Assembly (NCBI GenBank): GCA_038852285.1
Contig: JAWCKG010000001.1
Span: 1 to 64,000 of the forward strand
From: Candidatus Bathyarchaeia archaeon
GTDB taxonomy: Archaea > Thermoproteota > Bathyarchaeia > 40CM-2-53-6 > DTGE01
Direction: 5' to 3'
Length of the DNA stretch: 64,000 nt
Below, in pieces: positions 486-5,605 of this stretch; position 1 is the first letter of the stretch; every line of letters starts with the position of its first letter. A program made the translations under genes and the position numbers. The notes under the pieces were generated by a model. That model was not told the DNA's origin. It did not search any database and saw nothing but the letters and a program-made list of their open reading frames with translations.

Positions 486-1304
486 ATGGAGATAAAATCC
501 ATTCTAATCGAAGCGTTAGAGTGCGTCAAGAGGGCTAGAGGCATCAAGCCCCTCTCCGCGGTAGAGGCTTCAGCGCTCAGATGGGAAATTTACGCCGCGT
601 TACAGAACACCTTAGACGCCATGGCCATGATAACAGCCGACCTAGGCTTAAGAAAGCCCAGCTCATATTCTGAGCTGGGGCTCATCCTCCACCAAAACGA
701 GTTCATCAACAGAAACATAGCTGAAACCGTAAGAAAGATAGCCGCGGTAAGGAATACACTGGCTCACGCCTATCGAAGAGTTTCAAGGGAAGACCTCATG
801 GAGATAGTTAATAAACTACTCCCTGAAGTCGAGACCGTGGTCAACTCCTCAACCAAACTTACCGAAGAAAAGAGTATAGACCCAAAAGCGCGTATTCATG
901 GAATAACGAAGGACCAAATATCCAAGCTAGCGGACACATTTAAAAAAAATGAGGTTTTGGCAGCGTATTTATTTGGAAGCCGAGCTAGGGAAATTTTCAG
1001 GGAGGACAGCGACTACGACATAGCCGTGCTATTTAAAAGAGAAAACGTCAGCATCCTAACCGAAGCAGATCTAGCGGTGGAAATAGCCGACACCTTAAAA
1101 GTACCATCGGATAAGGTTGACATAGTATCCCTGAACAAGCAAGAGTTTCCATTGATCGCCAGAGTCTTAAAGGAGGGAATACTAATCTACCAGCAAGATG
1201 AAGCGTTTAGAAAAAACTGGGAGAGGAAAGCGTACCTCGAACTGCTTAAAAACATGGACTTATACGCCCCATACCTTAAAAGAGCGCTCAAACATATAAA
1301 ATAA
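486..1304 (+). CDS. HepT-MntA fusion: HEPN toxin and nucleotidyltransferase antitoxin in one chain
   Basis: The 272-residue protein joins two domains normally made by separate genes. Residues about 1-122 are an all-helical HEPN/HepT-like domain carrying the RX4HXY RNase motif (R89, H94, Y96). Residues about 135-272 are a minimal nucleotidyltransferase of the MntA type with the GSX10DXD motif (G164, S165, D176, D178). In characterised HepT/MntA pairs the MNT protein AMPylates a tyrosine in the HEPN RNase motif and so neutralises it; in a single chain the same could occur in cis or within a dimer (inference). Both catalytic motifs look intact. ATG start at 486. The gene stands alone between a decayed sugar gene and a VapBC pair. 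Alternatively it is a regulatory or substrate-modifying fusion. Confidence 0.8.
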   Translation: MEIKSILIEALECVKRARGIKPLSAVEASALRWEIYAALQNTLDAMAMITADLGLRKPSSYSELGLILHQNEFINRNIAETVRKIAAVRNTLAHAYRRVSREDLMEIVNKLLPEVETVVNSSTKLTEEKSIDPKARIHGITKDQISKLADTFKKNEVLAAYLFGSRAREIFREDSDYDIAVLFKRENVSILTEADLAVEIADTLKVPSDKVDIVSLNKQEFPLIARVLKEGILIYQQDEAFRKNWERKAYLELLKNMDLYAPYLKRALKHIK

Positions 1305-1576: not shown

Positions 1577-1984
1577 TTAAAAGTTGGTGTTGATCCAAAT
1601 CCTCTTAACTTCTTCAACTTTATCGAAGTCTTCATCTTCGCTTACTATGTAATTTGCCCCCGTCTTTTCTATCGTTGCTAAGTGCATCGCGTCAGATGGC
1701 TTTAACCTGTATTTAAGCAGGTATTTTTCAACTAAGTTTAAATCCCCCTCTCCAATCGACACGACTTCCACGTATGGCAATACGATACTCCTCAAGAATT
1801 TTAACGTAGCCTCATATGAGAGCCCGTACTTTCTTGATACATATAACACTTCATTTACGACTAGTATGTTGATGAAAACCTGGTCTTTAATCAGCCTCAC
1901 GAAGAGCTCGTCAAACTTCCTTCTTTCACCGCTCGTCATAGCGTTTAAATATATCAGGAAGTTCGAGTCTAGAAAAACCTTCAA
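1577..1984 (-). CDS. vapC: PIN-domain ribonuclease toxin, VapC family
   Basis: A 135-residue single PIN domain. It begins with the usual strand and first acidic residue (FLDSNFLIY, D6), has E45 in VNEVLY, D98 in PSDAMHLATIE and D117/D119 near SEDEDF, the set of acids that binds Mg2+ in PIN nucleases. VapC toxins cleave tRNA or rRNA until bound by the partner antitoxin. The start ATG overlaps the last four bases of the upstream AbrB-type gene (1981-1984), the classic translational coupling of a vapBC operon. Length is normal for the family. The RNA target cannot be read from sequence. Confidence 0.88.
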   Translation of the reverse strand: MKVFLDSNFLIYLNAMTSGERRKFDELFVRLIKDQVFINILVVNEVLYVSRKYGLSYEATLKFLRSIVLPYVEVVSIGEGDLNLVEKYLLKYRLKPSDAMHLATIEKTGANYIVSEDEDFDKVEEVKRIWINTNF

Positions 1985-2253
1985 CCCATCTTTTCCTCAA
2001 ATTCCATTTCAAGATAAACCTTCTTAAGGTCGCCTAAGCCTGGACCAGAAACCCCCATCTTCTTAACCTCCTCTACATGCCTCTTCAGCCTATTCATTAT
2101 TTCGTCAGGCGTCGGCCTCCCCCTTATGAGAAGACCTTCAACCCTCGGCTCTATTATAACCTGCCCCCCCTCTTCTATGTCGTATTCATCTCTAAAAATT
2201 TTCGGGATCAGTATTTGCCCCTTATCGCTAACCTTCACTTTAAGTTCAACCAT
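1981..2253 (-). CDS. vapB: AbrB/MazE-type antitoxin of the VapBC pair
   Basis: A 90-residue protein whose first half is a SpoVT-AbrB swapped-hairpin DNA-binding domain (KVSDKGQILIPKIFRDEY, then a hydrophobic strand ending in LLIRG). The second half is a charged tail of the kind that wraps around a VapC active site. It is the first gene of the pair and overlaps vapC by four bases. Family knowledge predicts that it both neutralises the toxin and represses its own promoter, perhaps located in the AT-rich stretch just upstream (about 2254-2290). The start is ATG at 2253. Confidence 0.85.
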   Translation of the reverse strand: MVELKVKVSDKGQILIPKIFRDEYDIEEGGQVIIEPRVEGLLIRGRPTPDEIMNRLKRHVEEVKKMGVSGPGLGDLKKVYLEMEFEEKMG

Positions 2254-4860: not shown

Positions 4861-5160
4861 ATGGGAGTAAAAACAAGTTTCATCATAGATGAAAAAACAT
4901 GGAGCAACTTTAAGGCTGTTGTGTTAAACAAATATGGCGTCAAGAAGCTCAGCTCCGCCGTAGAAGAGGCGTTAAAAACATTCACCACCCTAACCGTAAT
5001 CGAGGAGTTTACTGAAAATCTAGGCATAAAAATTTCATACCCCTCCTCGAATGAGCTGAAGAAAAACAGGCCCGCTGTTAGGGCTTCTGCAAGCGCTATA
5101 GTTAGAGAGATGAGAAATGAACGCGAAGCGCATCTACTTGGACTCCAGCGTGATAGTTAA
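4861..5160 (+). CDS. putative antitoxin of the second VapBC pair
   Basis: A 99-residue protein starting at ATG 4861, directly behind an AAGGAGGATTGGAGT ribosome site. The open frame runs back to 4627, but that extension overlaps the previous gene and lacks protein character, so it was not used. The protein has an N-terminal FIIDEKTWSNFKAVV and SSAVEEALKTF, the strand-helix-helix pattern of ribbon-helix-helix antitoxins, then a variable charged tail. Its end overlaps the PIN-domain gene by 44 bases, which implies translational coupling. Role as VapB-like antitoxin and autorepressor is inferred from the pairing. Confidence 0.65.
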   Translation: MGVKTSFIIDEKTWSNFKAVVLNKYGVKKLSSAVEEALKTFTTLTVIEEFTENLGIKISYPSSNELKKNRPAVRASASAIVREMRNEREAHLLGLQRDS

Positions 5161-5605
5161 AAGATACTTGAAGGAAGTTGCAAGCGAAGTCGTAGATGTA
5201 GCGTTCGACAACGCTGAAGTGGGAAAGGTTAAGCTCTACTTCTCCGTTTGGAACATAGGAGAAACCATTGGAGTATTTGATAAATATGGGAAAAAGGGAT
5301 TTTTATCTGAAGATGAGTTAAAAAGAGTATTAGGTGATTTTCTATCCGAAACTATAAAGCTGTCTAAGCTTGGAGGGCTTTACGTAATGCCCATCACACA
5401 CGCCCATTTGACGACCTCCTGGCTGATGGTTTTAAAACACCATATTTATGTTTCAGATGCATTACAAATCGCTTCATCAAAAAACAACTGCGACGTACTG
5501 TTAAGCGGGGATGAAAGACTCGTTAGAATAGCCCATTTAGAAGGGTTAGACGCCGTCAATGTCGAAAAATCTCCTGAAGAAGCTTTAAAACTGATGCCGG
5601 AATGA
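5117..5605 (+). CDS. vapC: PIN-domain ribonuclease toxin, VapC family (second copy)
   Basis: A 162-residue PIN domain with the four expected acids: D9 in YLDSSVIVKRY, E49 in NIGET, D114 in VSDALQIAS and D132 in SGDERL. It belongs to a different subgroup from the VapC at 1577-1984; the two share only the fold and acids. It overlaps the preceding antitoxin by 44 bases. The expected activity is Mg2+-dependent endoribonuclease cleavage held in check by the partner. Length and motif spacing are typical and nothing suggests inactivation. Confidence 0.85.
   Translation: MNAKRIYLDSSVIVKRYLKEVASEVVDVAFDNAEVGKVKLYFSVWNIGETIGVFDKYGKKGFLSEDELKRVLGDFLSETIKLSKLGGLYVMPITHAHLTTSWLMVLKHHIYVSDALQIASSKNNCDVLLSGDERLVRIAHLEGLDAVNVEKSPEEALKLMPE

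Follow-up and report, generated by a model that had tools for sequence, protein, structure and literature searches.

The window, by which we mean the whole 64,000-nucleotide stretch analyzed, corresponds to the opening 64 kb of contig C1 in a 1.7-Mb, 42-contig archaeal genome (match to the archaeal SSU rRNA model, 1531.8 bits). On its forward strand, positions 486-1304 carry one uninterrupted frame of 272 residues, running from ATG to TAA without an internal stop, that encodes a HepT-like HEPN domain, a short linker and an MNT nucleotidyltransferase domain in that order. The features of the gene are as follows.

486..851, + strand: HEPN half, a predicted HepT-like RNase toxin, residues 1-122 (PF01934, helical HEPN in the AlphaFold2 model, Foldseek match to 6m6u_H)
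750..773, + strand: RX4HXY motif, read from the sequence as RNTLAHAY, residues 89-96, with the RNase site R89/H94 and the predicted AMPylated Y96
852..920, + strand: interdomain linker, residues 123-145, variable in the alignment apart from an Asp-Pro, D132-P133
921..1199, + strand: MNT half, an MntA-like nucleotidyltransferase antitoxin, residues 146-238 (PF18765/PF01909, NCBIfam MntA, Foldseek match to 7bxo_E)
975..1019, + strand: GSX10DXD motif, read from the sequence as GSRAREIFREDSDYD, residues 164-178, with G164-S165 and D176-Y-D178
1119..1121, + strand: D212, third metal-binding Asp (Asp in 46/48 aligned fusions), its equivalence to D71 of Shewanella MntA being presumed
1200..1301, + strand: C-terminal helix, an MntA-like tail, residues 239-272 (helix 239-271 in the AlphaFold2 model, NCBIfam MntA match)

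One frame with a HepT-like and an MntA-like half

Pfam searches matched residues 28-120 to PF01934 (HepT-like, E-value 1e-16), residues 147-239 to Polbeta PF18765 (1.3e-22) and residues 145-231 to NTP_transf_2 (PF01909). The NCBIfam model MntA_antitoxin scored 76.9 bits against a cut-off of 60, with the match extending to residue 252, and HepT_toxin scored 49.1 bits, which is under its cut-off of 60. The AlphaFold2 monomer was modeled with high confidence in both domains (mean pLDDT 92.6), their relative placement being uncertain (pTM 0.57). The best PDB matches to this model by Foldseek were MntA 7bxo_E (TM 0.81) and HepT 6m6u_H (TM 0.84), both scored by target length and both chains from solved type VII complexes. 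In Shewanella MntA, D71 coordinates Mg2+ (PMC7641770). The original prediction that HepT and MntA are fused here in a single polypeptide was thus borne out by the continuous frame, the domain matches and relatives with the same domain order; both active-site motifs are intact as it had proposed, and its residue numbers Y96 and D176 are correct.

Relatives and surroundings of the fused gene

The gene begins 485 bases from the contig start and several of its relatives are pseudogenes, as might be expected of an assembly error or a decaying pseudogene. We rejected this explanation as extremely improbable, given the open frame, the intact motifs, and orthologues in the same frame in independent genomes, some of them single-contig. 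A frameshift between residues 122 and 135, of which the original prediction had warned, was looked for, and the linker frame proved equally continuous in independent genomes. Nor is the window fusion an assembly accident, because relatives with the same domain order occur in several families of the phylum: one gene (L005 in genome G003, from another family in the same taxonomic order) shares the frame and start position at 43-44% identity over its full length, and 16 genes with the HEPN-to-MNT order besides that of the window, L005 among them, from several families, are at least 33% identical to the window protein.

The HEPN-to-MNT architecture was found in the same frame in many genomes of the phylum and is common there. 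A search of 121 genomes with PF01934 alone, using no fusion profile, placed 26 matches (counted from the table) inside uninterrupted frames of at least 246 residues, and our own profiles, run against the fetched loci, identified 57 HEPN-to-MNT frames and 25 MNT-to-HEPN frames, these being counts in a similarity-gathered set and not frequencies. The search for other fused cases that had been suggested thus provided 48 HEPN-to-MNT fusions for alignment, and uncovered the opposite order too. Two HEPN-to-MNT frames had long N-terminal extensions (L084, 808-2346, 513 residues; L119, 228-1415, 396 residues), and one genome, G219, held at least five MNT-to-HEPN fused paralogues (L060-L064) plus a HEPN-to-MNT fusion (L030).

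In a tree of the HEPN halves, the window protein lies within an 18-row clade made up of HEPN-to-MNT fusions only (SH-aLRT 100), which come from families f1, f3, f15 and f21 of its class plus others in the phylum. Other HEPN-to-MNT fusions form further clades, and the MNT-to-HEPN fusions form one clade (SH-aLRT 96). The MNT tree agrees within clades, its deep branches being poorly resolved. The domain-order label changes at least twice on the HEPN tree and at least four times on the MNT tree (few columns); these changes leave a single origin for all HEPN-to-MNT fusions unsupported, and the fusion probably happened more than once.

The window's genome contains three arrangements of these domains: the HEPN-to-MNT fusion in the window, an MNT-to-HEPN fusion on contig C3 and separate hepT and mntA genes on contig C11. 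The C3 gene (L001, G000:C3, 1054-1884) encodes 276 residues with both motifs intact (GSTGRNAAQPLSDVD and RNILAHRY). On C11 (L003, G000:C11, 1004-1902, minus strand) hepT precedes mntA, the gene ends overlap, and the MNT motif is of the short GSX8DXD form; this toxin-first order is the reverse of the one reported as usual (PMC3710099).

Adjoining the fused gene in the window is a PIN-domain toxin gene with an AbrB/MazE-type antitoxin gene (1577-2253, minus strand), and a second PIN gene lies at 5117-5605 (plus strand), so that the contig start is rich in toxin-antitoxin genes. No conserved gene neighbors were evident across the three HEPN-to-MNT loci read. These surroundings, together with the existence of fused toxin-antitoxins with direct phage triggers such as CapRel (PMC9712102), would suit a single-chain defense sensor in which the MNT half restrains the HEPN RNase and a viral protein switches it directly, a reading that differs from the one we favor below solely in its trigger. 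We consider such a sensor unlikely, as a search of viral contigs gave no confirmed viral relative and the neighbors read included no defense-system genes. A search of plasmids gave three weak matches, each covering 32-42% of the query and confined to the MNT part.

Conservation, selection and decay

Alignment A4 comprised 48 HEPN-to-MNT fusions, including the window protein, whose 272 positions supplied the numbering; one member, L082, has a stop near its start and was read from the next start codon. All 48 matched both the NCBIfam HepT and MntA models at E-values of 0.001 or less. The sole invariant positions were H94, Y96, G164, D176 and D178 (48/48), followed by R89 and D212 (46/48 each) and S165 (42/48), in a set gathered by similarity and not by motif, with a profile that contains the motif columns, so that a bias toward conserved sites is possible. 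Substitutions at R89, S165 or D212 occur in a minority of relatives, among them L005, with Asn at 212. Since Shewanella HepT stays toxic but is neutralized less well when its equivalent Tyr is replaced (PMC7641770), the invariance of Y96 suggests that modification of this Tyr is still selected for, and points to AMPylation being retained rather than RNase chemistry. Six relatives (L093, L097, L100, L102, L113 and L114) failed the GSX10DXD pattern with the HEPN motif intact, Gly replacing Ser where seen in the alignment, and nucleotidyl transfer may be altered in these.

Purifying selection acts on both halves, with dN/dS well under 1 in the HEPN half (0.09-0.45) and the MNT half (0.08-0.39) in closely related pairs whose dS could be resolved. 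Decay, on the other hand, is one-sided. When lesions in broken fused genes were mapped against the nearest intact relative by frameshift-aware alignment, they fell in the HEPN half in 17 genes, the MNT half in 1 and both in 3. Lesions of the HEPN half, or of HEPN plus linker, were found in L171, L172, L173, L174, L175, L176, L177, L179, L182 (with an additional shift close to the C-terminal end) and L183, and further in L027, L029, L088, L094, L082, L140 and L200; L178 is broken in MNT alone, and L180 (whose lesions are identical to those of L181), L188 and L007 in both halves. One-sided frameshifts and stops numbered 13 in HEPN against 1 in MNT (n=14; binomial p ~7e-4 under a length-proportional null, or 0.004 when only the MNT core is counted), with the classification and test devised after looking at the data and some of the genomes being drafts. 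In L176 and L177 the MNT half survives alone, the HEPN half being deleted or unrecognizable.

Such HEPN-biased decay is as expected of a toxin-antitoxin, where loss of the toxin is tolerated and loss of the antitoxin alone is not. An MNT half kept for another use would fit the pattern as well. According to the 2013 survey, MNT-fused HEPN domains typically lack RNase residues and are likely inactive (PMC3710099). That account speaks for a domesticated nucleotidyltransferase, whose HEPN half would merely bind substrate, as in enzymes of the kanamycin nucleotidyltransferase or GlnD/GlnE type, with some other target being modified. This strikes us as improbable for the fusions aligned here, which keep R89 in 46 and H94 and Y96 in all 48, and in whose decaying copies HEPN is the half that breaks. 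Most MNT-fused HEPN domains read in this phylum keep every catalytic residue, which qualifies the published view of them as mostly catalytically dead.

Conservation is lowest in the linker (mean identity to relatives 25%, versus 45-48% in the domains). Within it the Asp-Pro is kept, D132 in 44 and P133 in 46 of the 48 (window 879-884). The low linker identity would be consistent with a fusion that is undone during or after translation, by an internal start or by linker cleavage, to leave an ordinary two-protein HepT/MntA pair, and in some relatives an in-frame start codon, accompanied by a loose ribosome-binding-site-like motif, does lie close to the linker. A conserved internal translation start was sought in the linker across the relatives and not found: none of the candidates is conserved in position, many members have none, and for the window gene the sole candidate listed was an ATG at codon 105 that lacks a ribosome-binding-site-like motif. 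We therefore think an undone fusion quite unlikely.

A single-chain reading and the known systems

The reading we favor, with a probability of roughly 0.68, is that the window gene encodes a single-chain, self-AMPylating type VII-like toxin-antitoxin protein. Counting against it are the sub-threshold NCBIfam HepT score, the low pTM, the toxin-rich make-up of the solved two-gene complexes, and the variation at R89, S165 or D212 in a minority of relatives. In this protein the N-terminal HEPN half would be an RNase, with a HEPN dimer needed for RNA cleavage as in other HEPN RNases. The C-terminal MNT half would use ATP to AMPylate Y96 of its own chain or of its dimer partner and so block the RNase cleft, as might be anticipated from the archaeal two-gene precedent in Thermococcus cleftensis, where HepT is AMPylated by MntA (PMC7641770). 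Fresh protein would be silenced during synthesis while ATP is abundant, and the RNase could be released by low ATP, by removal of the AMP by a phosphodiesterase, or by an invader's factor that disables the MNT half, three candidate triggers that we leave unranked. Models of activation for the two-gene systems invoke low ATP, degradation of the MNT protein, and de-AMPylation by a phosphodiesterase (PMC11586414, PMC7641770).

Because each toxin is born with its silencer, neither toxin excess nor antitoxin decay could serve as the switch without cleavage of the linker. The original prediction that fusion removes differential decay therefore stands insofar as decay of a free antitoxin is excluded short of such a cut; its premise that this decay usually frees the toxin fares less well, as type VII neutralization is covalent and decay was never clearly the main switch. 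Its further point, that fusion fixes expression at 1:1, is upheld by comparison with the solved two-gene complexes, which are toxin-rich (6:2 in Shewanella, PMC7641770; 4:1 in Legionella, PMC11586414) in ratios that a fusion cannot reach without proteolysis. More tentatively, and with the odds against it, these proteins may make up a whole archaeal family of self-AMPylating single-chain RNases that sense ATP level or de-AMPylation: born toxic and silenced by ATP, they would regain activity only through a collapse of ATP, a phosphodiesterase or an invader, and antitoxin decay would play no part. Predictions place HepT/MntA among the commonest toxin-antitoxin pairs. In a one-chain form neither decay of free antitoxin nor surplus toxin can vary, so the trigger that re-arms the AMPylated toxin can be probed directly by expressing just one protein.

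Our search of the open-access literature found no paper on a type VII fusion in which both sites are intact. Already on record are occasional PF01934-MNT fusions, a DPANN MNT-HEPN fusion, and single-chain toxin-antitoxins of other kinds, namely EzeT and CapRel. The toxin and antitoxin families of these last two are unrelated to HepT/MntA, and their antitoxins work by contact and not by AMPylation. The likeness is that a toxin is covalently joined to its antitoxin (EzeT, PMC4826407; CapRel, PMC9712102). The supposition that known systems consist of separate genes is too broad, PF01934 HEPN domains having been described as "occasionally fused to MNT" (PMC3710099) and the DPANN fusion being documented (PMC6393860). 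That DPANN fusion, cls.004259 (NEQ050), likewise joins MNT and HEPN in one archaeal chain, and is set apart from the window protein by its description as unusually conserved and typically in a housekeeping context (PMC6393860). Kanamycin nucleotidyltransferase and the GlnD-GlnE enzymes also unite in one chain a Pol-beta-type nucleotidyltransferase and a helical, HEPN-like domain (PMC3710099), but the KNTase/GlnE-type HEPN lacks the RNase residues, whereas the window protein keeps R89 and H94 (present in 46 and 48, respectively, of the 48 aligned fusions). Nearer at hand, the MNT-to-HEPN fusions of the same phylum and genome, such as that on C3, have the same two domains in one chain and differ in their opposite order, a longer interdomain region and their separate HEPN-tree clade. 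With type VII HepT/MntA (Shewanella SO_3166/SO_3165, Thermococcus cleftensis), the window protein shares the folds, RX4HXY, GSX10DXD, the modification Tyr and the third Asp; it differs in being a single chain from a single gene, with the toxin half leading and the ratio fixed at 1:1. Because one continuous frame, common to the orthologues, takes the place of two adjacent separate genes, we class it as a single-chain type VII variant rather than a standard two-gene member.
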